Positions 3,327 through 44,292 of a DNA stretch of 46,097 bases are shown here, piece after piece. The notes beneath the pieces were generated by a model. That model made no database searches. It saw only the letters and a program-made list of their open reading frames with translations, and was not told the origin of the DNA. This DNA comes from Fragilaria crotonensis (taxonomy: Eukaryota; Bacillariophyta; Fragilariophyceae; Fragilariales; Fragilariaceae), in the NCBI GenBank assembly GCA_022925895.1, contig JAKSYS010000510.1, forward strand, positions 1-46,097, written 5' to 3'. Every line of letters starts with the position of its first letter. The first letter of the stretch is position 1. The translations under genes were made by a program, and so were the position numbers.

Positions 3327-3404
3327 ACGAGAGAACAAAAAACATTGAATACTAAGACCTACGTGGAGCTACCTCGTGTACCCAGAATTTGCATCCAGCC
3401 ATAG

Positions 3405-3835
3405 AGATTCTGCAGATTCCGTCATGACCACGGACGAGTTTCCACGATTCCAACTTAACCAGGTTTCAGTACAAAGTGACCATGGTGCGGTAATTCTCTC
3501 TAAACATAAATTTCGTCTCGTGGCTTCTACATACAATCAATACTACGAAGAGATGCCTAGACAGAGATTACCGCACCTTCCACGGTCATTTCGTGCTAAC
3601 TTGGTTAAGTTAACATCGTGGAAACTTGTCCGTGGTCATGACGGAATCTCTCTAAACTCTTAAGTGAAACCTCTAAAGTTTTGTCTAATGTCTAAAGTGT
3701 TCCACGGAATCTCTCTCTAATGTCTAAAGTCTTTAGAGAGAATGAGACTTTAGACAAAACTTTAGAGGTTTCAAGAAATGTTTAGAGATTCCGAAGATTC
3801 CGTCATGACCATGGACGAGTTTTCCACGATTTCAA
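3405..3835. repeat. Cluster of nested inverted and direct repeats
   Basis: A block containing ATTCCGTCATGACCA..GGAC..GTTTCCACGAT occurs three times: 3414-3466 (+), inverted at 3601-3657, and + again at 3793-3833. A second inverted pair lies inside: GAAACCTCTAAAGTTTTG near 3666-3684 against its complement near 3753-3775. A smaller hairpin, TGTCTAAAGTC / GACTTTAGACA, joins 3721-3731 to about 3746-3756. The tract could fold into a large cruciform. It may be the 3' end of the adjacent transposon, a MITE, or a foldback element. No protein is encoded there. Confidence 0.75.
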
Positions 3836-11310: not shown

Positions 11311-13050
11311 ATGAAGGTGCTACAGTCCCGTGCGATACGTCTCTCCTATCCAACTGCGCTGACTGCCGTTTTGTCGTTGTCGCCAACCTCCTTGGTGCGA
11401 CGTGTACGAGTGAGTGCCCTTTCCTCTCAAACCAAGTCAACAACGACTAGTCTCAAGACAATTCGTCATCTTGACGATCTTTCTTGGTTTCAAACTCCCG
11501 ATACGAATGCAGCACTCTTTCCTGTTTACAACCCTGCCGAACCGGCGCACATTATAGCCCACGCTCCGATTCATACCAGAGCCGATGTTACTTTAGCCAT
11601 TGAGAGGTCACACGCTGCTTTGGAACGATGGAGAGATGGAACAACTCCTGCCTATCGAGCTTCCTTGCTCATCAAGTGGTCACAACTCATCCAGCAACAT
11701 AAGCACGATATTGCTACCATTATGACACTCGAATCTGGAAAGCCATTGGCCGAGAGTATAGGAGAAGTCACATACGGAACCTCATTTTTGGATTACTACG
11801 CCGCAGAGGCTGTGCGATTCGCTGGGACTCTCCTACCGTCTGCCTTTTCATATCCTGATGGTTCTCCTCGAGGTCAATCCATGGCGATGCACAGAGCTGT
11901 CGGAGTCACGGCATTGATCACACCCTGGAACTTTCCAATTGCCATGATTACACGCAAAGTAGCTCCAGCATTAGCCACGGGATGTACGGCATTGGTAAAG
12001 CCGTCCGAACTCACACCACTCACGGCCCTGTTGCTTCAAGAGTTGGCTCATCAAGCAGGTATACCCGAGAATGTACTGCAAACCATGTAAGTGTGTGGCT
12101 CTTGTGAAGTACCTCATGTCATTACGTCGTGAGTATAAGTGCTTTGAATTAAACATCAAACTTAACCAACCATCGCAAACGACCCCAACAACAACAGAAC
12201 GACGGATCGAGAACACACCCCTCAAGTCGGTCACGAACTATGTACCAATCCTCTTGTACAGAAGATATCCTTCACCGGATCTACAGCAGTCGGAAAGCTG
12301 TTGATGGAGCAATCGGCAAGCACCGTCAAACGCCTTTCTCTAGAGCTCGGTGGGAATGCTCCATTCCTCGTCTTTGAGGATGCCGATCTGGACCAAGCTG
12401 TGACAGCTGCCGTGGCTTCTAAATTTCGTAATGCAGGTCAGACATGTGTCTGTTCCGATCGCTTTCTGGTCCAATCGACGGTTTATGACGAATTCATTTC
12501 CAAATTCGCAGCAGCCATCAACAACAACAGCGAAAGCGGATTAGTCGTTGGGAATGGCATGCACGCCGGAGTTACCATGGGACCCCTCATATCCAAACAG
12601 GCATGTGACAATGTACATCAAAAGGTGCAGGATGCCATTTCCGCAGGTGCCAAATGTGTGACGGGAGGACATGTATTGGAATCTTTGGGGAGTCCCAACT
12701 TTTATGCTCCCACAATACTAAAAGATGTTCCTTTACACTCTGAGATTTGGAAATCCGAAACCTTTGGACCCGTGGCAGCTGCCGTTCCATTTGATTCGGA
12801 ACAGGAAGCAGTGGCACTGGCAAATGATTCGTCGACTGGACTCGCATCCTATTTCATGACTCGTGATCTGTCCCGCACCTTTCGTGTTGCCAAGGCACTG
12901 GAAGCGGGAATCGTGGGTGTCAATGATGGAATTATTTCCACCTGCACGGCTCCATTTGGTGGTATCAAGGAGAGTGGATTGGGACGAGAAGGTGGGGCTG
13001 CAGGATTGCAAGAATATCTCGAGAGCAAGTATGTTTTCATCAACTACTAG
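11311..13050 (+). CDS. SSADH: Succinate-semialdehyde dehydrogenase, mitochondrial
   Basis: Exons are 11311-12086 and 12198-13050, with a 111 bp intron (GTAAGT...CAACAG). The spliced protein has 542 residues, close to animal ALDH5A1. The N-terminus is rich in Arg, Ser and Thr without acidic residues for about 50 positions, as in a mitochondrial presequence. Aldehyde dehydrogenase signatures include PWNFPIAMITRK (cofactor site), FTGSTAVGK, the catalytic Glu in LELGGNAPF and the nucleophile in NAGQTCVCSDRF. The CVC pair matches the redox-switch loop of human SSADH. The enzyme oxidises succinic semialdehyde to succinate in the GABA shunt. The C-terminal PFGGIKESGLGREGG is also typical. No frame damage was seen. 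Confidence 0.9.
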
Positions 13051-16683: not shown

Positions 16684-18930
16684 TTATGCGGCCGACGCTG
16701 CATTGGGGTGAACCACGTCAAATCGATACAGTTTACACCCGTAGATCACCAAATGGCTGTCATCCATGCCTGCATTCCGATAGATCCGCAATGCTTCAGT
16801 AAAGCAATCCATCATGACTGCGAGGTTACCCCTTTGAAGTTCAATGTTGCCGATCTCATTCAGTGTTCTCGCACACGTAGGGTTGTCTTCGCCTAGGCAT
16901 TCTCGTTCAATCTGCAACGCCCTCGAAAAACTTTCCAGAGCAAGCTCCATGTCACCACGCTGGTAGTGAATCTGCCCAATGTTATAAAAAGTGATTCCCA
17001 AATCTCGGTGTGCAGGGCCCAGGATTGACATTTCCACACGTGCAGTCTCGCGGTAAAAGATGAGTGCATGCTCGTAGGAACCGCGGTGGTGATAAATCAT
17101 GGCAATGTTGTAGAGTGTAAAGGCAATTTCCGCGTTTCTTGCGACTGAAGGACCTACGGATGCGGTAGGATTCCATAAGTACCTCGAGAGCAATCTCATG
17201 TCCGTTCATTTTTAATAGCACAAGTGCAATGTGCGTCAAGGTGATGGCAACGTCTTCGTCCATATCGCCCTTGATACTTCGTCGAATGCGAAGGCACTCT
17301 TGATCGCTCTCTAGAGCTCCAGGGTAATCTCCCATCTGATGCTGAACGAACGCGATGCAGCTTAAAGTGTTGGCGATCTCTTGTAGACTAGCTGGGATGT
17401 GCTTCTCTGCAGTGCGAGCAACTTGTGGTAGTACTGCAAGGCGTTGTCGAATTCAGCGCGTTGTTTGTGAATTTCCGCAATGTTGGTGAGGGTAACTAGG
17501 ATATTTGCATTGCCAGCATCCAATACTGTCTCTTCGACCGTCAAACCCTGTCGGTAAACTTGAAGGGCCGCATCCAAATTCCCTAATTCGTAGTACAGAT
17601 TACCGACCTTGTTCAACGTAATGGCAATCTCAGGATGGAGCGGTCCCAGGGCCGTGCGACCGACCCGCAGTGCTTCCTGAAACGATTCCATTGCACCCTG
17701 AAAGTTTCTGTCTTCATGATGGACTTGACCAATACACGTCATGACGATGGCAATATCTCGATGACATCCTCCAAAATGAGCCTTGGCCAGTGTCAAGAAT
17801 TCGTGGTAAAGGCGCATGGCCTGTACTCGATCTCCGAGTTGATGATGGGATTGTCCCATGTTGAAGATGGTTGCGGCCACATCAATCGACTCCCCCAGGA
17901 CGGCTCTTCGAATCCGTAACGCATTCTCGTACGCTTCCATGGCTAGGACGTAATCACCACGTTGGAAATGAACTCGACCGATATTGTTGTACGTCGTGCC
18001 AGTTTCCAAATGTGTCTCCCCGAGAAGACATTGTCGGTAGTTGAGTGATGTAAGTAGTGCTTCAAGGGCTTGATCAGAATCACCCAGGGGCATAATGTAC
18101 TTGACGACCCCGATGCAATTCCAGCAGGCAGCCACTTCTACTGATTTGGTACCGAAGCAATCTGTGGCCAGAGAAAGTGCAACATCGTAGGTCTTTAGGG
18201 AGTCGTTGTGTTCGTTGCGATGGTACTGTATCTGTGCCACAGCAAAGAGAATTGCCAACATGACTGTCGCATCACAAACTTGCCATTGTTCCAAGGAAAT
18301 TAAGGCCCTCCTGTAGAGCTCCATGGCTCGTGCGTACTTGGATCGCAACTGATAGGTCCGAGCAAGGTTGTAGAGAACCATGGCATCCACGTTTCGTGAT
18401 GTAGCAAAGAGTCTGAGTCCGTCGCCGAAGAAATCCATACCTTCATCGTACTCGATCGGGGTCGGTACAGTTTCTTCTCCTCAGCAGTTCCTCGCGAGGT
18501 TCCAGGAGATCATGGACGAGATGGGACCAGTGGCACCAGTTGCAGCAACGGGAGCTGAGGATGCAACGGATGCCGTAACTGGCATAACTGGTCCCATCTC
18601 CCATGCTATTTGGCGATGGTGTTCCTCCACGAAGCGCAGCACGATTCTGAGCGCTTTTTTTGCAGCTGAATACTGCTTGTGTTGAATCAAAAGGACAGCC
18701 TCGTTGTTCAGAAAAGCTGCGATACCAGGTGCATCTTCCTTCGCTGCGACAGTAACAGTAGCGTCCGGGCCTGGCTGCCAGTGCAACATTCCGTGACAGC
18801 GTTCAACTTTACCACACTCTGGCGCGTTGAACGAAGGCGTCGTCGACGACAATGATGAGGGACGTCTGATATCGTCTCCTTCGGTTCTGTCGCCCTTCCG
18901 TTTTGTTGACGAAGGGAGGGACATACTCAT
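16684..18930 (-). CDS. Tetratricopeptide-repeat protein, kinesin-light-chain-like, with frame breaks
   Basis: The start is ATG 18930 (MSMSLPSSTKRKGDRTEGDD) and the last frame stops at 16684. After a low-complexity head come about ten or more TPR units of roughly 42 residues, with repeated forms such as TTYNNIGRVHFQRGDYVLAMEAY and TLNKVGNLYYELGNLDAALQVY. These resemble kinesin light chain repeats, which are scaffolds for protein binding and are abundant in diatoms. The coding sequence is broken three times. There is an in-frame TGA near 18481-18483 (or a short unrecognised intron). A -1 frame shift near 17381 is consistent with a lost T on the + strand. A further shift lies near 17150-17160. 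Each break lies within otherwise continuous TPR-type sequence, so a single original gene is inferred. Partners are unknown. Confidence 0.65.
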
Positions 18931-23772: not shown

Positions 23773-25092
23773 CTAAATGGCATCTTCACGATTGTCTCCC
23801 GCACAAACGGCAATGTTTGGCTGAAGATCAGCAAGACTCTCGGATGCAACCATGGCTTGTTCATGACATCCCAGAATTTGCGACTCTCTGCTACGTGCCC
23901 TTCTCGCTTCAGATGGCGGAATCTTATTTGTCAGGCACTGCTTTATTGCCCACAACCTTGATCTCATGGGTAATAGTCGCCGCCATTGCATATACCTGGG
24001 GCGAAGATAGATAAGGACGTTCAGGAATCCCTGCAAAGGGAAAATGAAGCCGATCAAGACTGTGAGCCAATAAAAATCAGATTCGTGCTCGCGCTGGATT
24101 CCAGCAGTCTGCTGAATCGCAATAGCCACGAGCACCATCAAACTTGTAAGACACGCCAATACGTATAGAGTTGCTTGTATTGCCACAGCTCTGGCTTGTT
24201 CATGTTCTCGACTCGCACACCGCAGAGCAGTATCAGATGCACTGCTGGTGTTGTTTCGAAAAGTTAGTAGCGTCCTGAGGAATTCCCTGGATCGTCGAGC
24301 GTAACCGGATGAGTTCCCACTTTCTGCATCACTTGGTTGCACGCCGCCATGGCTATTGGGGCTGCTGATGCTGCTTCTGTTGGTGACACCTGTGCGTTTT
24401 GCCGAATCGTTAACAATGGTTTCAAACTTGGTACGTCGGTATTGCTCTGATCTTCGTCCCGTGGATCGAACCTTCCAATAGATCATTCGGTTAGAAACGA
24501 GGAGAAATATAATTGATGCCCCAAGGGGTATGCCCCCGAAGATCAAAGCGAAAATAGGATCCAAACATGGTACCGAGGGATCCTCGCCGCATCCCTCTGG
24601 ATAGTGTCCAATCCAACAAACCAGACCCAATTCTTTCTCAGAGTAGAGGGAAATACCAGCTCCAACAGATGCCGTTATAAGAGGAAAGAGAATGGACATG
24701 ACATGCAGGTACGGCTCGAAATTCTTTTGGAATTTGAGCTCGCTGACTCTGTACACGACTGTGGCAAGGAAGAAGGCGTTCAATGAAATATTGTAGAGTG
24801 GGACAGAAGTGCCGAGTTGCGTGAAGAATTCCATCATCGTGCAAGTCTGATCGTTCCCATGTGCTGATATTCGCCCCCCTTCCGCCGGCAAAAGGAACGG
24901 ATGAATAAACATAAAAATGGCACTGATCATGTCAAACACAGACATGCCATGCATCATTCGATTGTAGACCGACAACTTTTTTGTCCTTAAAACCAAGCAA
25001 ACAATGGTGCTGGATCCCGCAAGGGATAACGAAGATGAGATGGAGTTTACAACAACCAACGCGATAACTTGCCCATCCGTCAAGGGCGCCAT
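23773..25092 (-). CDS. Seven-transmembrane receptor-like protein (GPCR, cAMP-receptor-like layout)
   Basis: An intronless 439-residue protein from ATG 25092; a longer reading from 25116 would begin with TTG. Seven hydrophobic segments are visible: TM1 VIALVVVNSISSSLSLAG, TM2 MMHGMSVFDMISAIFMFIH, TM3 VPLYNISLNAFFLATVVYRV, TM4 YLHVMSILFPLITASVGAG, TM5 IFALIFGGIPLGASIIFLLV, TM6 ATLYVLACLTSLMVLVAIAI and TM7 LIGFIFPLQGFLNVLIYLRP. The third intracellular loop is long and Ser/Arg-rich. PLQGFLNVLIYLRPRY at the end of TM7 recalls Dictyostelium cAMP-receptor-like and related orphan receptors. Cysteines before TM3 and in the second extracellular loop could form a disulfide. It probably signals at the plasma membrane; ligand and G protein are unknown. 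Confidence 0.75.
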   Translation of the reverse strand: MAPLTDGQVIALVVVNSISSSLSLAGSSTIVCLVLRTKKLSVYNRMMHGMSVFDMISAIFMFIHPFLLPAEGGRISAHGNDQTCTMMEFFTQLGTSVPLYNISLNAFFLATVVYRVSELKFQKNFEPYLHVMSILFPLITASVGAGISLYSEKELGLVCWIGHYPEGCGEDPSVPCLDPIFALIFGGIPLGASIIFLLVSNRMIYWKVRSTGRRSEQYRRTKFETIVNDSAKRTGVTNRSSISSPNSHGGVQPSDAESGNSSGYARRSREFLRTLLTFRNNTSSASDTALRCASREHEQARAVAIQATLYVLACLTSLMVLVAIAIQQTAGIQREHESDFYWLTVLIGFIFPLQGFLNVLIYLRPRYMQWRRLLPMRSRLWAIKQCLTNKIPPSEARRARSRESQILGCHEQAMVASESLADLQPNIAVCAGDNREDAI

Positions 25093-26300
25093 TGTGTTAC
25101 TGTCATCAATGCTCAAGGAGAAATATATGGATAAGTTCAGAGCGCAAACGGAACTTCAGCTTACAAAAAGTCCGGATGTCAGGATCCTCGCAAAGGCTGC
25201 TGCTTAAAACAGTGACGACACCATCTCGACACTATCAAGATAAATTCTCCCAAAAAGATGTAATAAATAACTTTTGGTGCGTCCTTAGCAAGACACAAGT
25301 TTGACACAAACCGAGAAATAATCGAGTGTGTCAAGCGCTCGACCCACTCGTTTGGCACTTCGACACGCGACAAAAGCGATCTCGCGTATTGAACTTGCAT
25401 ACAGTTGTAACCTCGCGACACATTCAGACTTTTTCAACCAATTAGATTTGCGCGTGAGTGCCAGCTTTTTAAGCTTTCATCAAAGAATACGTCGCATGAC
25501 CGTATCGATGTTGGCAAAACCGATCTGAACAGAAACTCCTGTATCTGGTGCCGTAATTCTCGGTCTAAATCTATGCATGTGAACATACATAACCATTTAT
25601 CTTCTCTTCAGCATTCTACAGCTGTTGTTGTACTGCTGAGCAATTGTGTTCACGACGACATCATGACGAACAAATTGAAATAGCATATTAAGTGTTAACA
25701 GGGGGTGTCTCTCCGTCCACGAACAATATAATTGGTCAATGTACATGATTCTATTGAAATAAATCAAACAAAGGGCACTCATTGCTTCGCCATGTCTGCA
25801 ACAACCCGAAACCGACGTTAAGTAGATCATTGTCAATATGCTTTAAGAAGTAAGATAAAATTACAGAGCAAGAAGTGTCGGTGATGAACCAAACAATGTT
25901 TTGTCATTCTTTACTCGATGTCAGTGGTGCATTGAATTCACAATGAATTCTCTTGATACTATGACATAATGCAGTGCACTTCTTGGAGTACAATGCACAA
26001 GCAATGACCGTCCTCATGCTTTCTATTGCTGCCTTTTCAAGCATGTTCAAAGATGGGGAAGGTCTCACAGGGTGAGGACATGGTGAGAACGTTCTCCAAA
26101 ACAATATAGATTTTTGCTTCATGAGGATGAATACAAAAAAGAGCAAATGTATACTGAATTAGTATGTCCACTCCGATGTGCCAAATCCTCCAAGTCCTGT
26201 CTCCACTCACCATTATTTGTGCATTTGGTGCTGACAGGACACTGAGAAATATGAGAGAAATTCATGATTGTGGGGCAGCGTGACATTGGCGGTTATGATA
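25093..26300. other. Region upstream of the 7TM receptor, no gene seen
   Basis: The part next to 25093 should contain the receptor promoter. Farther on, AT-rich sequence with only short frames may include the 3' non-coding end or LTR of the Copia remnant that follows. No terminal repeat pair was found by eye. Confidence 0.3.
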
Positions 26301-33861: not shown

Positions 33862-36800
33862 ATGAGTGGGAACGGTAGTTACCAAAAGAACGGAGGATAC
33901 GGCATTGTTCCGAATGGCGAAGGTACGATATCTTTTCAAATCAGTCATCGGATATACCACAATATGCGTTTGGTTCGAGTGATGGCTTGTCAATTGGCTC
34001 GTTTATCAAATCGAATAGAAATGATGTTATCTAACAATTCAATGTTTTCCCACCTCTGCTTATTTCAGATGACGATATCCCCAACTCCAAGCCTCCTAGC
34101 AAGTGGTTCATTGTCGCCGTCGTTACGGCTGTGATTGCGGCTGCCGGCTACGGTGGATACGCCTTGATCGGAAAGGATACCAGCGGCGAAAACATGGCGG
34201 TGGAATCCGGTACTGTTGCCGTCACCGCAGATGGAAAGATCAAGCTCTTTGACAAGTTCAATCGATACGTTTTGGAGGACTTTGATGCCAAACCAACCTT
34301 TTCAGATTTCCTTCCCGGTGTCGCTGGATACTTTGGAAAACCAGTCTGGTCCTTCTACGTCAATCGCGGTCAGGGCATGGCGTCCTTCGGAACAGAAAGC
34401 AAGGAGTTTCCAATTTTGGAATTCAATGCCGCCAACAAGGCATATCAAGTCACACCGTACGTTGGATTCCGTTCGTTTGTGCGAGGAACTCGTAGCATGA
34501 GTTCCTTCGAAACGGAACCCTTCAGTCCAGCAAACACTCGCAATCTTGCCCTCGATGACAAGGATGCCTCCAAACCGAAGCGCATCATGTATGTTGGTGC
34601 CAACGAATTTGAAGTGCAAGAATTCGATCAAGTGAACAATCTCGCAGTATCGGCCACGTACTTTGTCTTGCCCGAAGAAGACTTTGGTACGCTGGTTCGT
34701 CGTGCAACCTACACGAATACAGGAGACTCGGATCTCACGTTGAGTGTCTTGGATGGTCTCGCCAAAATGGAGCCATCGGGTGGTATGTTGGACTGGTCGC
34801 TCAAGCAGATGGGCCGAACTTTGGAGGGATGGATGGGTGTCTACCACGTGGACGATACTCTCACCATGCCGTTTTACAAGATGTCCACCGAGCCTGGTGA
34901 CTCTGCCAGTGTCAAGATCGAAGAGGCCGGTCATTATTGCTTGGCCTTTGTGGAGACAATGAACACTACTGCCGAGCTCTTGCCAATTGTCTACGATACG
35001 ACCAAGGTCTTTGGTCAATCCACGTCTCTTCAGTCTGCTGCTGGACTTGCCGCCTCGTCGGTCGGAGAGATCCTTGCCAATCCTCAATACGGTGATGCCA
35101 CTACCTCATCAGCCTTTGCGGCCATTGACAGGGTGACACTTAAGCCAGGGGAAAACATCACCATCGCTACCTTCTATGGAAAGGCTGGGCATATTACTGA
35201 TGTCCCCAAGATTGTTGACATTATTACCGCTCCTGGTTACGTCCAGGCCAAGTTTGAGCGTGCTCGCCAACTCATTGATGAATTGACTGCCGGTGTCGAA
35301 ACAAATACCGCCAATCCATTGTTCAATGGTGCTGTCCAACAGATGTTCTTGGACAATGCCCTTCGTGGAGGTATGCCAACTGTCATGGGAAAGGTCGAGG
35401 GTGATGCAACCTACGACGAGGACGAGGGTGTCAAGATCTTCCATGCCTTTTCTCGCATTCATGGTGATTTGGAGCGTGACTATAATGCATTTGATATTCA
35501 GCCAGCATACTACTCTCAAGGTCCTGGAAACTACCGTGATGTTGCTCAGAATCGTCGTGATGATGTCACCTTCTTGCCGCGTATGGGTTCGTACGATGTC
35601 AAAATGTTCCTCTCGTACATTCAAGCAGATGGATATGAGCCTTTGACAGTTGAAGCTGTTGCTTACATGTTTGAGGATAGGGGTGTTACCGATGCCTTAG
35701 CTGCAGAGCTGACTGCGGAGTCTGGCAGTGCCAAGAGTGAGTCGCATGTTGTCTTTAGAACTGTATGTGTTTTCTCGCGAATTCCTGTGTGCTCATGCTT
35801 GCCTTCTTTCCATCTTCATAGCCCTTTCCAATGTCCTCATGGGAGGTCCGTTCCGCCCTGGACAGCTCTTCCAGCTTGTTGATGACTTGCACATCAATGT
35901 GACTGTTTCCAACGAAGTTTTCATCAATACCATTCTCGCCAAGTCCATCGATCGTCCCATGGCTGTCTACGGCTCCGGATACTGGGCTGACCATTGGGAC
36001 TACTACCTTGACCTTATTGAAGCGTACACTTCCATCTATCCTGATGGTGTCGAATCACTCATGTACGACACCAAGCTCCGCTACTTCTTCTCCACCGCGA
36101 CAGTGAAGCCTCGCAGTGAGAAGTATGTGTTGACGTACACTTTTGACGGCCTTTCCAAGCACGTTCTTCAGCTTGATTCAACAGTCTTTGACCTTGAGAA
36201 GGTTGCCGAGCAGAAGGCATTCGTTGACCAATCAACTGGTCTGCTTGGGATCGATGCGAACTGGCAACGTGTTGTTGGTGGCCAGGCATTTGAGTCGCCG
36301 ACTATCGCAAAGCTGTTCCTGCTTGGTGCGATCAAGTTCGCCATGCGTGATGCGTACGGTATGGGCGTTGAGTATGAAGGCGGCCGTCCAGGTTGGAACG
36401 ATGCCATGAACGGTCTCCCAGGTATGGTCGGCTCTGGCATGCCCGAAACCTATGAGATGTACCTGATGTTGAAGTACGTTCGTAAGGTTGTCAAGACATA
36501 CAAGCGAGGCGTCATCGTGCCAGATGAACTTCACGTCATGGTTTCCACTATCAACAATGCGCTGGATGAGTTGGAAGCCACCGGATTTACGGACCCCGAA
36601 GAGCTTCCCCTTGATGTCCCCGATGAACTTTTCCACTACTGGGATATCGTTGCTGCTGCCCGCGAGTCGTACCGCAATGATGTGCAGTACTACTTTTCCG
36701 GAAACACCACAGAGATCCCTGCCCACAAGGTCGTTACCATGTTGGACCGTTGGATCGATCAGGTGGAGCTCGGTATGAAGCGCGCCATGAAGATCGCCTC

Positions 36801-37734
36801 CAGAGGCGACGGCGATGACGGAACATCTGGCATTGCTCCTTGCTACTTCTCCTATGATGTTACGGCATGGAAGCTCAATGGTGGCAGCAACGCCGTCGGT
36901 CTTCCTTTGGTTAACGCCTTGTCCATGCGTGTTGGAACGTTTCCTCTCTTCCTTGAGGACCTGTCCGATACCTGAAGACGGTCCAGGATGATCAGCATGC
37001 CGTGAAGGATATGTATGCTCGGGTGTTGCAATCTGGCCTTCGCGACGAGAAGCTGAAGATGTACTTCCTCTCTGCCAGTTTGAAGGGACAGAGCTATGAC
37101 ATGGGAAGAATGATGGCCTTCTCCAGGATGGCTCGAGAATCAGTCTATCTGGACGCACATGTCTTTCAAGTATTACCTCCAACTCCTGAGAGGCAAGCTG
37201 TATGAGGAGTTCTTCGCTGAGATCAAGGGCGGAGGAATGATGACATTTATGGATCCTGACGTTTACGGTCGTTCCTTGATGGAGTGCTCCTCCTTCATGG
37301 CGTCGTCTGCATTCCCTGATCCTTCGATGCATGGACGAGGTTTCCTTGCTCGTCTCAGTGGAAGTACTGCAGAGTTCATGTCGATGTGGAAGCTCATGTT
37401 CTTGGGACCTGAATTGTTCTTTTTGAATGATGTCGGTGAGGTTGAGATGAAGTTTGTCGTTGCCATTCCTTCGTGGTTGTTTGAGGATGACGAAAACCCG
37501 GGAACTCGCGACGAAAATGGTGATTTGACCATCAACTTCAAGCTCTTCGGGACGATTCCAGTGACCTACCACAACTCGGAGGGAGGCGACCTGTTTGGAG
37601 TGAACGCCAAGGGATATTTGATCAAGATGAAGGATGGAAGTGCTTTCCATGTCGACGGTCCATCCGTACCATCGGCAACAGCGCTTGCCATTCGCCGCGT
37701 CAAGGGCGTCCAGTCTATTGATGCGTACTTTTAA
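33862..37734 (+). CDS. Membrane-anchored GH94/cellobiose-phosphorylase-like protein, tandem copy 1
   Basis: Exons are 33862-33922, 34069-35736 and 35822-37734, with introns of 146 and 85 bp. A polar head of about 30 residues precedes one hydrophobic segment (WFIVAVVTAVIAAAGYGGYA) and no cleavable signal, so it is a type II membrane protein with a large lumenal or extracellular part. FLPGVAGYFGKPVWSFYVNR, GPGNYRDVAQNRRDD, GYWADHWDYYLDLIEAY and GGRPGWNDAMNGLPG resemble cellobiose-phosphorylase-like bacterial proteins. The WND Asp would be the GH94 general acid. Compared with copy 2, a G is missing at 36957-36958 and a C is extra near 37176. Total exon length is 3642 nt, or 1213 residues once both are counted. 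The substrate is unknown. Confidence 0.65.
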
Positions 37735-39500
37735 ATAATATGACATGAATGAGATAAGGCATTGCAAGGGTGTGAAGCATGATTACATTTTCATTTTTAA
37801 CATAATGTTTCATCTTACGTCTTACTATTTTGTAGCCTTCTATCTCGCGACACTCATGGCGTTGTAGTCCAGGTTTGTATTTTGCTCCAACTCCCCGAAA
37901 TGTTTGTGCAGTCCTTTCCGCCCGGTGGTATTTTTAAGTTTGTAACTACGATGGAGCGATAAATTCTAGGGCACAATTTCACTCTTGTTATATTGTGAGT
38001 GGCCTATTTCACCAGCAATTGTGAGTAGCACCATCACAAGGCTCTTGTGGCTGGTCATCTGGACTTTTTTGAACACACAGAATCCACAAATGATTCATGT
38101 CTCGATTCCTTCGGTCTCCTGTTTGTCAAGAAAGCTTCGTATGGAAGTAACTTGTAGCATTGATATGCTGTTCAACCATCAATCTCTCCCAAGCTTGCAG
38201 TGTGTCTCACCTGGATTTAACAAATGTCGAGTCAACTCATGTGCTGGCGGGTTTGACAAAGCCAGTGCCAAGACGAGGCTGGTCATCCGTACTTTCCACA
38301 ACTCAGGTTTCCCATGGGATATCCTGGTGTCGCAGTCTGCTTGGTGATGTTCTTCCACCAATGACTTGTTTTAAATAATGCCACAAATTGACCAACAATT
38401 TCATCATGCTGCTGGCCACAATGTACCTAGGTCTCATCATTGTCAGCTATTTTCCAACAGCACCCAAGGCTTGACAACACTCCTTCTCCAGAAGTACTCA
38501 TTTCTTCAATTCGTGTCGTGGTAAGCATCTCAGCCTTCATGAAAAACTTGTGTGATTTCACTCCTTCTTTGTGGTGTCAATCCTCGAGAAGCGGATCAGC
38601 CAGCCATCTTCTTTGTAATCAATTCAAGATTGTTCCAGCCTTTTTTGGTTCAGTGTCATCCTGAATTTGTTGTTGCTCCTTGGGCCTTACCTCCAGCAAC
38701 AAGGTCCAGATCTCCATTGCTTCATCAGTACTTATGGTGTGGACGGTGCCCAATACCAGAAGCCCACTAGCCAGTAGTCGGACGACTCACCCATCTAGTA
38801 ATCTCTTGTTAGATTCACCCCATTTCATGTGATAGTTCAGATTACTTTTCCCAATCCTTGTTGCTTGACAGGTCTTCACCTTAACCCTTCCTTCCTCATT
38901 GATCACCTATGCACAACTGTGGATTCCATTTGTTATATTTGATTGATGTAATCTGGACTCCGTCCTAGTATGCCTATTCTTGATATGAATCCTCAATAAA
39001 GCTAGGCATACTGAAGTCTACTCTCTTGGGTGTGCACGTCCGTAGTCCGCATCGGTACCGTACAGTCATCTCAGTACCGCTTGTGGTGCTACTGACATTG
39101 AGGCATACTAATCTCTTCATTACATGTTTGCAACCGATCTATTTCTAGGTCAATTCGTTCCATGTTGCTGGCCACGAGGGCGGACGAATTGGTTACGGGC
39201 AGATAGGGTCAAAAAGCGATAGCGGTACAAGGTACAAGTAGCGATGCATCACGGACGGGGACTAACTTTACTGACATTGAGGTTCAGTAATACTGTATTC
39301 CTGTAATACTGTAATGCGCTGAGTTCGAGAAAACAAAACGGTACTCAAAATATTGCGAAATCTGTTGATTCAAAATGATATAATAAGAGTGAAAAATATG
39401 TTTTAGATCAAACTCAACTACTACAGTACACAGTAGCTGTTCGAATGGCCTATTCAGAAATTGATATTTTAGCCTACGGAAATATCAACGGTTGGAGACG
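37735..39500. other. AT-rich insertion-like tract between the tandem copies
   Basis: No intact gene. A minus-strand stretch (about 38770-38470) reads as broken protein-like sequence that I cannot classify. An exact 9-bp inverted repeat, AGTATGCCT / AGGCATACT, brackets an AATAAA signal at 38967-39012. ACTGACATTGAGG occurs twice, near 39087 and 39270. GTAC words are frequent after 39050. Confidence 0.4.
38967..39012. repeat. Inverted repeat around an AATAAA signal
   Basis: AGTATGCCT (38967-38975) and AGGCATACT (39004-39012) pair perfectly across a 28-base loop that contains CAATAAAG. It could be the 3' end or terminal repeat of an inserted element. Confidence 0.6.
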
Positions 39501-39539
39501 ATAGAGAATCCACCAGACTTCAATCGATCGTCGAATGAT

Positions 39540-39942
39540 GATAGGGTGCCTACTCGAACCCTGAAGACTCTGGCTCCGCCAAGGAGGATTACCTGATGAC
39601 GCGGTCGTAACGATGATGTCCTCTTTCTTAGAATAGAAAGATATTCGGAGCAGCTCATCGTTAGCAGCCCGTGTTACGGTTGCTATCGTGAATCCTTATG
39701 ATTTCGTCGCTATCTCTGCTCGCTTCAACAGTTTTCATGCTGTGCTCATTTACTTCCACAACGCTGGACGCCAGTCAACTGCGGACATTGTTAACAATTC
39801 ATTCACGAGGCATTGCTTGCTTGTCACCGACCGTGGGTCAGATTCCCAGTCTCCTTACCAGACTTCCTACGTGGAGGTCTCCATCATCGCTGTTAGATTC
39901 ACAGTGGGATCCCCTGTGCAGTGCATACAAAGCATCGTCTGA
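39540..39942 (+). pseudogene. Decayed ribosomal protein uS2 (RPSA) pseudogene
   Basis: From 39661 to 39942 the + strand reads LAARVTVAIVNPYDFVAISA, then HAVLIYFHNAGRQSTADI, then LLVTDRGSDSQSPYQTSYVE and GSPVQ. These align in order with the uS2 gene at 44711-45537 ([51 protein letters not shown]). Just upstream, in other frames, come RNDDVLFLRIE (matching [11 protein letters not shown]) and a GTR-like start with stops. Divergence is high and lesions are many, so it is an old copy. Its orientation is opposite to the intact gene. Confidence 0.75.
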
Positions 39943-40437
39943 TGCAGGATCTAGGCCAAGATGAAAAGTGGATGCGAATTCAGTCTGACGTGATGGTTGG
40001 GAGTTACATTTGCTTGCTTTTCTCTCAAGTCTGAAAGAGGCAATGTGCGAGGTGACTGGCTCGATTCAGGCATTCACATGAGAGCGGTCGCTGTTCGTTT
40101 AGCTGGTGAAATACCAGTCAAGATTCAAAAGCACTGAACTTTATGTAGAAGAGTTTGATTCATGTCCCAATTATATTTGTGAACGAACCTTGATAACATG
40201 ACTCACGACTCACATCTAAAATGTCCACCTTATGGATGCAAACGAGATTCGCCATTTTTTCAGTGCACAAGAGCCTGGCGTCCTTTTGCCTTGTCAAAGA
40301 ATCGACGAGTACAATAATCGACACGTCGGAGAAAATGTTGGACTGCCATTCCGAGTGTTCGGGTTGTTGTGAGTTTTCGGATGTTGTGAAACCCACATGA
40401 ATTCAGAAAAACTGTTGCATCATAATTTGCAACCATC
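39943..40437. promoter_or_regulatory. Upstream region of tandem copy 2
   Basis: No gene is recognised. It should hold the copy 2 promoter. No obvious match to the copy 1 upstream region was seen by eye. Confidence 0.3.
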
Positions 40438-43400
40438 ATGAACGTAAAGGACAGCAGTTACCAAAAGAATGGGGGGTACAACTCTGTTCCAAATGGCGAA
40501 GGTATGATATCTGCAATCGGCGGTTGCGTTTGTATCAATACCTGTTACTGGTTATATCGTGTGATGCTGTCATGATTGCCACACCCATACCTCACCTTAA
40601 GACATTTCTGGCATTGCAGGTGTTGAAATCTCAAACTCCAAGCCTCCTAGCAAATGGTTCATTGCGACTGTCATCACAGCGCTGATCTTTGCTGCCGGGT
40701 ACGTTGGATTAACATTTATGCGAAAGGCCAAAAGCGGTAAAGGCATGGCCGTAAAATCCGGTGATGTCGACGTTTCGGATGACGGAGCGATAAAGCTCTT
40801 TGACAAGTTCAATCGATACGTTCTGGAGGATTTGATGCCAAACCAGCCTTTTCAAATTTCCTTCCTGGTGTCGCTGGATACTTTGAAAACCAGTCTGGTC
40901 CTTCTACGTCAATCGCGGTCAGGGCATGGCGTCCTTCGGAACAGAAAGCAAGGAGTATCCCATTTTGGAATTTAATGCTGCCAACAAAGCATATCAAGTC
41001 ACACCGTACGTTGGATTTCGTTCGTTTGTGCGAGGAACTCGCAGCATGAGTTCCTTCGAGACGGAACCCTTCAGTCCTGCGAACACTCGCAACCTTGCCC
41101 TCGATGACAAGGATGCCTCCAAACCGAAGCGCATCATGTATGCTGGTGCGAACGAATTTGAAGTGGAAGAATTCGACCAGGTGAACAATCTCGCAGTATC
41201 GGCGACATACTTTGTCTTGCCCGAAGAAGATTTTGGTACGCTGGTTCGTCGAGCTACCTACACGAATACAGGAGACTCGGATCTCACGTTGAGTGTCTTG
41301 GATGGTCTCGCCAAAATGGAGCCATCGGGTGGTGCATTGGACTGGTCACTCAAGCAGATGGGCCGAACTTTGGAGGGATGGATGGGTGTCTACCACGCGG
41401 ACGATACTCTCACCATGCCATATTTCAAGATGTCCACCGAGCCTGGTGACTCGGACAGCGTCACGATCGAAGAGGCCGGCCACTATTGCTTGGCCTTTGT
41501 GGAGACAACAGACGATACTGCCGAGCTCCTGCCTATTGTGTTCGATACGACAAAGGTCTTTGGTCAATCCACGTCTCTTCAATCTCCTGCTGGACTTGCC
41601 GCCGCTTCGGTCGGGGAAATTCTTGCCAATCCTCAACATGGCGATGCCACTACCTCATCAGCCTTTGCGGCCATTGACAGGGTGACTCTTAAGCCAGGAG
41701 AAAACATCACTATCGCTACCTTCTATGGAAAGGCTGGGCATATTACGGACGTGCCCAAGATTGGTTACATCATTACCGCCCCTGGTTATGTCCAGGCCAA
41801 GTTTGAGCGCGCTCGCCAACTCATTGATGAATTGACTGCCGGTGTCGAAACAAATACCGCCAATCCAATGTTCAATGGTGCTGTCCAACAGATATTCTTG
41901 GACAATGCCCTTCGAGGAGGTATGCCAACCGTAGTGGGAAAGGTCGAAGGTGATGCAACCTACGACGAGGACGAGGGTGTCAAGATCTTCCATGCCTTTT
42001 CTCGCATTCATGGTGATTTGGAGCGTGACTACAACGCATTTTCTATCAAACCATCATTCTTCTCTCAAGGTCCTGGAAACTACCGTGATGTTGCGCAGAA
42101 TCGTCGTGATGATGTCACCTTCTTGCCGCGTATGGGTTCGTACGATGTCAAAATGTTCCTCTCGTACATACAAGCAGATGGGTATGAGCTTTGATGGTTG
42201 AAGCTGTTGCTTACATGTTTGAGGATAGGGATGTTACCGAAGCATTAGCTGCGAAGCTGACAGCAGATCGTGGCAGTGCCAAAGGTGAGACAAATATACG
42301 TGATGTTTTGTTGTTGAGCAACCTGGTCCTTTCTCCTTTGTTCTATATTTGCTCACACTTGCCCTCGCTCGCCGTAATAGCCCTTTCCAACGTCCTCATA
42401 GGAGGTCCGTTCCGCCCTGGACAGCTCTTCCAGCTCGTTGATGACTTGAACATCAATGTGACCGTTTCCAACGAAGTTTTCATCAATACCATTCTCGCCA
42501 AGTCCATCGATCGTCCCATGGCTGTTTACAGCTCTGGATACTGGGCTGACCATTGGGACTACTACCTTGATCTAATTGAAGCGTACACTGCCATCTATCC
42601 TGATGGTGTCGAATCACTCATGTACGACACCAAGCTTCGGTACTTCTTCTCCACCGCGACGGTCAAGCCTCGAAGTGAGAAGTATGTGTTGAATGATGCT
42701 TTCGATGGCCTTTCAAGCACGTTCTGCAGCTCGATTCGACAACGTTTGATCTGGAGAAGGTTGCCGAACAGAAGGCATTTGTTGACCAATCAACTGGCCT
42801 GCTTGGGATCGATGCGAATTGGCAACGTGTTGTTGGTGGCCAGGCATTTGAGTCGCCGCCTATCGTGAAGCTGTTCCTGCTTGGTGCAATCAAGTTCGCC
42901 ATGCGTGATGCGTACGGTATGGGCGTTGAGTATGAAGGCGGCCGTCCTGGTTGGAACGATGCCATGAACGGTCTCCCAGGTATGGTCGGCTCTGGCATGC
43001 CCGAAACCTATGAGATGTACCTGATGTTGAAGTATGTTCGCAAGGTTGTCAAGACTTACAAGCGGGGTCTGATCGTACCGGACGAGCTACACGTCATGGT
43101 TTCCACTATCAACACGGCACTTGACGAGTTTAGTCGCACTGGGTTTACGGACCCCGAAGAGCTCCCCCTTGACGTCCCAGATGAACTTTTCCACTACTGG
43201 GATATCGTCTCTGCTGCCCGTGAATCGTACCGCAATGATGTGCAGTACTACTTTTCCGGAAACACCACGGAGATTCCTGGCCACCAGGTCGTTGCCATGC
43301 TAGACCGTTGGATCGATCAGGTGGAGCTCGGTATGAAGCGCGCCATGCAGATCGCTTCCAGAGGCGACGGCGACGACGGAACATCTGGCATTGCTCCTTG

Positions 43401-44292
43401 CTACTTCTCTTTTGATATTACGGCATGGAAGCTTAATAAGGGACACAACGCCGTGGGTCTTCCCTTGGTAAATGCCTTGTCCATGCGTGTTGGAACGTTT
43501 CCCCTCTTCCTTGAGGGACCTGTCCGATACCTGAAGACAATTCAGGATGATCAGCACGCCGTGAAGGATATGTATGCTCGGGTGTTGAAATCTGGCCTTC
43601 GCGACGAGAAGCTGAAGATGTATTTCCTCTCTGCCAGTTTGAAGGGACAGAGCTATGACATGGGAAGAATGATGGCCTCTCTCCAGGATGGCTCGAGAAT
43701 CAGTCTATCTGGACGCACATGTCTTTCAAGTATTACTCCAACTCCTGAGAGGCAAGCTGTATGAGGAGTTCTTCGCTGAGATCAAGGGCGGAGGAATGAT
43801 GACTTTTATGGATCCTGATGTGTACGGTCGTTCGTTGATGGAGTGTTCCTCCTTCATGGCGTCGTCTGCATTCCTGATCCTTCGATGCATGGACGAGGTT
43901 TCCTTGCTCGTCTCAGTGGAAGTACCGCAGAGTTCATGTCGATGTGGAAGCTCATGTTCTTGGGACCTGAATTGTTCTTTTTGAATGATGTCGGTGAGGT
44001 TGAGATGAAGTTTGTTGTTGCCATTCCTTCGTGGTTGTTTGAGGATGACGAAAACCCGGGAACTCGCGACGACAACGGCGACTTGACCATCAACTTCAAG
44101 CTGTTCGGGACGATTCCAGTGACCTACCACAACTCGGAGGGAGGCGACCTGTTTGGAGTGAACGCCAAGGGATATTTGATCAAGATGAAGGATGGAAGTG
44201 CTGCCCAAGTCGACGGCCCATCTGTGCCATCGGCAACAGCGCTTGCCATTCGCCGCGTCAAGGGCATCCATTCTATTGATGCGTACTTTTAA
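40438..44292 (+). CDS. Membrane-anchored GH94/cellobiose-phosphorylase-like protein, tandem copy 2
   Basis: Exons are 40438-40501, 40620-42284 and 42381-44292, with introns of 118 and 96 bp; the second is a multiple of three without stops. The head (MNVKDSSYQKNGGY), anchor (WFIATVITALIFAAGYVGL) and catalytic-like GGRPGWNDAMNG match copy 1, and much of the body is nearly identical. Against copy 1, single bases are missing at about 40831 (T), 40885 (G), 42189 (C), 42714 (C) and 43873 (C), and one is extra near 43678. Exons total 3641 nt, and these six lesions net to 3645, exactly 1214 residues, one codon longer than copy 1 as its head predicts. This is either consensus error or a young pseudogene. 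Confidence 0.6.

Follow-up and report, generated by a model that had tools for sequence, protein, structure and literature searches.

A tandem pair of putatively membrane-anchored GH161 phosphorylase genes in the diatom Fragilaria crotonensis

Introduction

Diatoms store carbon in their vacuoles as chrysolaminarin, and the route of its breakdown is still unsettled. We analysed a 46,097-nucleotide stretch of DNA from the diatom Fragilaria crotonensis (contig JAKSYS010000510.1 of assembly GCA_022925895.1, positions 1 to 46,097 of the forward strand; hereafter the window), in which two genes, copy 1 and copy 2, follow each other in direct tandem orientation and each encode a large catalytic body behind a hydrophobic helix. 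What would this body do, and which side of which membrane would it face? Our reading, to which we give a probability of roughly 0.5, is that the pair encodes anchored phosphorylases of family GH161 whose catalytic bodies would lie in the lumen of the chrysolaminarin vacuole. A GH161 pair with so clear an N-terminal helix lends itself to a direct test, namely of the membrane side that the body faces.

Assignment of the catalytic body to GH161

Judging from sequence similarity, the body of both proteins almost certainly belongs to GH161, a family of β-1,3-glucan phosphorylases. All four pieces of copy 1 that were compared with solved GH161 chains gave a match (exon 2, E 7e-75; the initial part of exon 3, E 1e-41; a short middle piece, E 0.0016; the C-terminal piece, E 6e-37); among the matched Protein Data Bank chains, 9qqk and 9gy9 are titled GH161 and 9h8v is deposited as a cellobiose phosphorylase. 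The body can be aligned over nearly its full length with these solved chains. The family, with OcP1 and OdBGP of Ochromonas and PapP of Paenibacillus polymyxa among its known members, shares the catalytic motifs of both copies, and heterokont GH161 genes contain introns, as do the genes described here (PMC6484121). Searching bacterial genomes with the C-terminal alignment left 64 of 143 candidates as retained loci, including Butyrivibrio, Pseudobutyrivibrio, Roseburia, Agathobacter, Lachnospiraceae and Clostridia-type loci, and the 60 with full-length open reading frames (ORFs) formed our comparison set. Identity to these bacterial proteins is about 36% (35.7-36.7% in five of the 60), and of the 282 columns conserved in at least 98% of them, 199 are kept in copy 1 and 194 in copy 2. 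Exon 2 alone retrieved no relative from bacterial genomes (0 of 57 candidates), nor were relatives found in viral contigs through exon 2 (21 candidate stretches) or the C-terminal alignment (23).

The preliminary description of this locus had called the body GH94-like, a view that has to be given up in favour of GH161, given the matches to solved chains and GH94 profiles that stay below cut-off. The sole GH94 profile match was the sandwich domain PF06165 in a copy 2 piece, at 11.9 bits against a cut-off of 23. GH149 was tried and rejected too, as three of four pieces reached 23-30 bits in NCBIfam against a cut-off of 1150, which is a whole-protein score. Pfam returned sub-threshold matches only, in two of four pieces, with the GH36 N-terminal domain in both. 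When the GH161 alignment was set against seven GH94 proteins by profile, to locate phosphate-site residues, three runs gave no meaningful alignment. No GH94 gene was recognised in 120 other long ORFs beside the bacterial GH161 genes, a scan that is uninformative because these GH94 proteins carry WNDC or WNDA and the motif used was too narrow. GH94 and GH149 are related to the pair in fold according to Foldseek, and the WND motif is common to both copies and the seven GH94 proteins, whereas the Pfam and NCBIfam models of the two families fail to reach their cut-offs. GH161 stands beside GH94 and GH149 in clan GH-Q, and its eukaryotic members are reported from Bacillariophyta, Ochrophyta, Haptophyta and Miozoa (PMC6484121); excerpts of a survey of stramenopile genomes place it in Ochrophyta only (PMC7965971). 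Diatom GH161 proteins have been known since 2019, and the family itself is not new here.

Predicted fold and active site

GH161 proteins combine a β-supersandwich with an (α/α)6 barrel. Two models, each supplied with 32 bacterial rows, were built: that of exon 2 (555 residues) reached a mean predicted local distance difference test score (pLDDT) of 61.8, and that of the initial part of exon 3 (378 residues) reached 71.2; the catalytic loop of the exon 3 model (residues 186-200) lies below 50. GH161 ranked first in Foldseek for both (E 1.9e-25 for exon 2 and 3.8e-14 for exon 3), with template modelling scores of 0.58-0.62 of the query, the models being partial and the barrel not folded whole. 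Behind GH161, exon 2 matched GH94 (1.6e-12) and GH149 (1.8e-12) and, lower down, GH116 among others, whereas exon 3 matched GH149 (4e-4) and a GH94 laminaribiose phosphorylase (0.016). The predicted fold is supported mainly by the similarity of the proteins to solved chains.

The motif GWNDAMNG occurs in both copies from position 767 and aligns with GWYDALNG of GH161, and its WND form is that of the seven GH94 proteins compared; the WND aspartate noted earlier is accordingly present in both copies. Furthermore, the His of SIWTHM aligns with that of SIWLHM in GH161, the Ser-Gly of ARLSGST with its GH161 counterpart, and RDVAQNRR with RDVNQNRR. The order of Asp, His and Thr/Ser-Gly was compared with that of GH94 by eye only. 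By motif, the His, Ser-Gly and Arg of the two copies are probably the conserved donor-site and phosphate-recognition residues of these families. The catalytic Asp, the donor-site residues and the phosphate-recognition His are conserved throughout GH94, GH149 and GH161 (PMC6484121).

An enzyme of GH161 fold at an endomembrane or the cell surface might have lost phosphorolysis and hydrolyse or transfer β-1,3-glucan. Copy 1 departs from the bacterial proteins at 83 of the 282 conserved columns, two of them merely through an X at a frame break, and excerpts of work on GH130 describe hydrolases stripped of their phosphate-binding residues (PMC4599007). We nevertheless regard such a loss as improbable, since the motifs with His, Ser-Gly and Arg-Asp have all been retained and a conserved phosphate His is named for the family (PMC6484121). 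The fold, as judged from sequence similarity and partial models, and the phosphate site, by motif only, both favour the phosphorylase proposed earlier.

N-terminal helix and orientation

One strongly hydrophobic segment is found per copy, in agreement with the single N-terminal helix of the preliminary description. The maximum of the Kyte-Doolittle plot over 19 residues is 1.89 in copy 1 and 2.01 in copy 2, in windows beginning at residues 34-36, and the best value past residue 90 is 1.24 in both; the usual threshold is 1.6. The helix sits in an N-terminal extension of ~80 residues that is missing from the 60 bacterial GH161 proteins, more than half of which begin by residue 80 of copy 1. Within their first 80 residues none of the 60 reaches 1.6 (best 1.43), and these bacterial members are in this respect without the hydrophobic extension that both copies possess. 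Both copies have kept the segment hydrophobic despite a divergence far greater here than in the body, with a synonymous divergence (dS) of 0.98 in the extension, from few sites. Plastid targeting was considered and set aside: the helix begins 32-33 residues in, and an ASAF-type motif was not seen by eye. The N-terminal extension is what is less usual about the pair. We found no description of an anchored GH161 in the parts of the GH161 literature consulted (PMC6484121, PMC7965971, PMC8950772), and the supplementary table of PMC7965971 may list some; excerpts of the latter state that few transmembrane domains were detected among the enzymes surveyed there outside GT48 and draw no conclusion from this.

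The cysteine content of the proteins bears on the orientation of the body. Each copy has three cysteines; the 60 bacterial relatives have 5-20, with a median of 12, and seven other ORFs of the window contain 59 in 3231 residues, one of these controls being without a Pfam match and two having only sub-threshold matches. A low cysteine content is usual for proteins of oxidising lumens and is an indirect sign, and the depletion fits a lumenal body. The positive residues in the 15 positions before and after the helix of copy 1 (two and one) barely favour a type II orientation. In addition, each tail has one YxxV motif (YGIV and YNSV), a possible sorting signal.

Several observations weigh against an anchored enzyme with a lumenal body. 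The exon 2 model falls below a pLDDT of 50 in the anchor region and at residues 433-555, both genes carry frame breaks, and the YxxV motif is short enough to occur easily by chance. The N-glycosylation sequons (6 and 4, bacterial mean 8.0) are not enriched, and the positive residues of copy 2, two before and five after its helix, oppose a type II orientation. Moreover, most stramenopile GH161 proteins are without clear targeting signals, according to excerpts of PMC7965971. With the same GH161 body and the same anchor, the protein could instead face the cytosol on a membrane such as the tonoplast, where it would use oligosaccharides exported from the vacuole together with cytosolic phosphate. 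The charges of copy 2 and the sequon counts speak for this arrangement, as does the lack of signal peptides, which is given as a marker of glycoside phosphorylases in part of a review (PMC8950772). Yet the tail of 32-33 residues would then need to traverse the membrane, cysteine is strongly depleted, and the charges of copy 1 lean the opposite way; we consider the cytosolic face unlikely, albeit a serious contender. On the earlier placement of the body in the lumen or outside, the evidence is divided: the low cysteine content supports it, the sequon count does not, and the flanking charges of the two copies conflict.

Proposed role in the chrysolaminarin vacuole

A connection with storage glucan had been a guess in the preliminary description, and the GH161 assignment makes it the leading reading. 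We infer activity, orientation, compartment and reaction direction alike. The single N-terminal helix with its short cytosolic tail would tether the protein to an endomembrane, the catalytic body would lie in the lumen of the chrysolaminarin-storing vacuole, and terminal β-1,3-linked glucose would be cut off there using inorganic phosphate, giving α-glucose-1-phosphate. GH161 enzymes are described, in excerpts of PMC6484121, to phosphorolyse β-1,3-gluco-oligosaccharides, with acceptors of a degree of polymerisation of 2 or more for PapP; parts of PMC2173943 identify the diatom vacuole as the chrysolaminarin store, and parts of PMC7283521 report a phosphate-transporter homologue in the vacuolar membrane of P. 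tricornutum, with phosphate storage left unconfirmed by the authors. Taken together, these points lead us to favour, at about even odds, a body in the vacuole lumen. The diatom GH16 1,6-β-transglycosylases TGS1 and TGS2 are likewise vacuolar membrane enzymes acting on the same storage glucan (excerpts of PMC10543733), while their fold differs from that of the GH161 pair.

We put forward only tentatively, at somewhat less than even odds, that diatoms mobilise vacuolar chrysolaminarin by lumenal phosphorolysis, with an anchored GH161 drawing on vacuolar phosphate and releasing glucose-1-phosphate. Release of this product in the vacuole would call for an exporter of sugar phosphate in the membrane around it. 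If the body is lumenal, energy-saving phosphorolysis would take place in the vacuole and an exporter of glucose phosphate must exist; if the proposal is true, it would overturn the model of diatoms without phosphorolysis that depend on free glucose and glucokinase. Kroth et al. (2008) proposed that glucokinase compensates for absent phosphorolysis (via excerpts of PMC7965971), and the same excerpts note that GH161 may change this model and leave its cellular location unsettled.

A phosphorylase at the plasma membrane, or a secreted one, would act on glucan of the cell wall or the outside. A lumen-facing type II protein can reach the cell surface, and we found no sequence feature that would discriminate the surface from the vacuole. 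The product would however be lost to the sea, where phosphate is scarce, and the glucan link known for the family is to the vacuolar store, all of which makes a surface location very improbable.

Layout of the gene pair

With its GT-AG introns, the window has a eukaryotic character. Each gene comprises a first exon of ~20 codons, two introns and a body of ~1130 residues (Table 1). The start ATG at 33862 and the TAA ending at 44292, between which the tandem pair had been placed, both proved exact. The two proteins are 92.1% identical (1107 of 1202 compared residues), their translations carrying an X for each intron or frame break and running to 1214 positions in copy 1 and 1213 in copy 2. Upstream of either start codon, up to the nearest in-frame stop, there is no further ATG, and tblastn with copy 1 as the query revealed no third copy in the window.

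Table 1. Coordinates of the GH161 gene pair and its features in the window
Feature	Position	Strand	Details
GH161 copy 1 gene, start to stop codon	33862..37734	+	exons 33862-33922, 34069-35736, 35822-37734
Copy 1 intron 1	33923..34068	+	GT-AG, 146 bases
Copy 1 hydrophobic helix WFIVAVVTAVIAAAGYGGYALIG	34104..34172	+	coordinates from frame at 34071
Copy 1 intron 2	35737..35821	+	GT-AG, 85 bases
Copy 1 catalytic motif GWNDAMNG (GWYDALNG in bacterial GH161)	36391..36414	+	
Copy 1 C-terminal piece	37120..37731	+	SIWTHM (His), ARLSGST (Ser-Gly)
GH161 copy 2 gene	40438..44292	+	exons 40438-40501, 40620-42284, 42381-44292
Copy 2 intron 1	40502..40619	+	GT-AG, 118 bases
Copy 2 hydrophobic helix WFIATVITALIFAAGYVGLTFM	40655..40720	+	coordinates from frame at 40622
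Copy 2 intron 2	42285..42380	+	GT-AG, 96 bases

Frame breaks and selection

Neither gene is one continuous reading frame, since each has frame breaks as well as two introns, a point that the preliminary description does not mention. The breaks lie within exons, two in copy 1 (near 36957 and 37118) and seven in copy 2 (near 40831, 40885, 42189, 42714, 43679, 43736 and 43873), and if they are genuine mutations, the pair is decaying. Between the copies, nonsynonymous divergence (dN) is 0.043 and dS is 0.258, giving a dN/dS of 0.168 (0.134 for the catalytic body), and there is purifying selection between them. The ribosomal protein gene uS2 beside copy 2 (45498-44884, minus strand) is itself split into four pieces that occupy three frames, the three breaks falling between 45460 and 45228. 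Of these pieces, only the C-terminal one is named by Pfam (E 6e-14); the others are presumably uS2 as well, recognised by eye from their likeness to eukaryotic uS2. Since dN/dS is 0.168 and the nearby uS2 gene is also broken, assembly error is likelier than decay. That both copies are decaying pseudogenes would agree with their two and seven breaks and with the state of an aldehyde dehydrogenase gene elsewhere in the window (11311-13050), in which no break was recognised, its two parts being in one frame and likely separated by an intron. The dN/dS between the copies and the three breaks of the adjoining uS2 gene, which point to base-level errors of the assembly, make this decidedly improbable.

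Positions 39570-39782, between the GH161 copies, are a uS2 gene fragment: in inverted orientation they match 45444-45236 in the uS2 gene at 74% identity.

History of the two copies

The introns are nearly unrelated between the copies, while the exons flanking intron 2 are more than 90% alike. Intron identity is 51% and 54%, compared with means of 43% and 45% for shuffled introns, whose highest values in 20 were 50% and 52%. Identity in the flanks, taken as 200 bases upstream of the start and 200 downstream of the stop, lies inside the shuffled range, and similarity fades ~55 bases past the stop. Four-fold degenerate sites differ at 11 of 23 positions up to codon 77 and at 88 of 528 beyond it (Fisher P 0.0008, for a boundary chosen after data inspection), and differences within the body are clustered, with 12 of 20 sites differing at codons 797-838 (permutation P 0.0016). 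Third-position GC content is 57-58%, from which codon bias looks weak. These patterns are no more than suggestive of an old duplication followed by exchange (gene conversion) between the bodies, and such exchange does not account for the distinct introns inside the exchanged body.

Other features of the window

An Rfam scan of the window gave nothing at the gathering threshold. On the plus strand, 78-2819 is a 913-codon open frame with no Pfam match at E 0.01, which by eye could be a mobile-element protein, and overlapping inverted repeats (~70-75%) occur at 3402-3835 together with a 91% direct repeat of ~52 bases. On the minus strand, a 447-codon ORF at 23773-25116 resembles the glucose-receptor family Git3 below threshold (E 0.00058, 20.3 bits for a cut-off of 24.2). 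A TPR-repeat protein lies at 16684-18930, also on the minus strand; its ORF at 17362-18438 matches TPR_12 (E 1e-40), and neighbouring ORFs on the same strand resemble further TPR repeats of the same protein.

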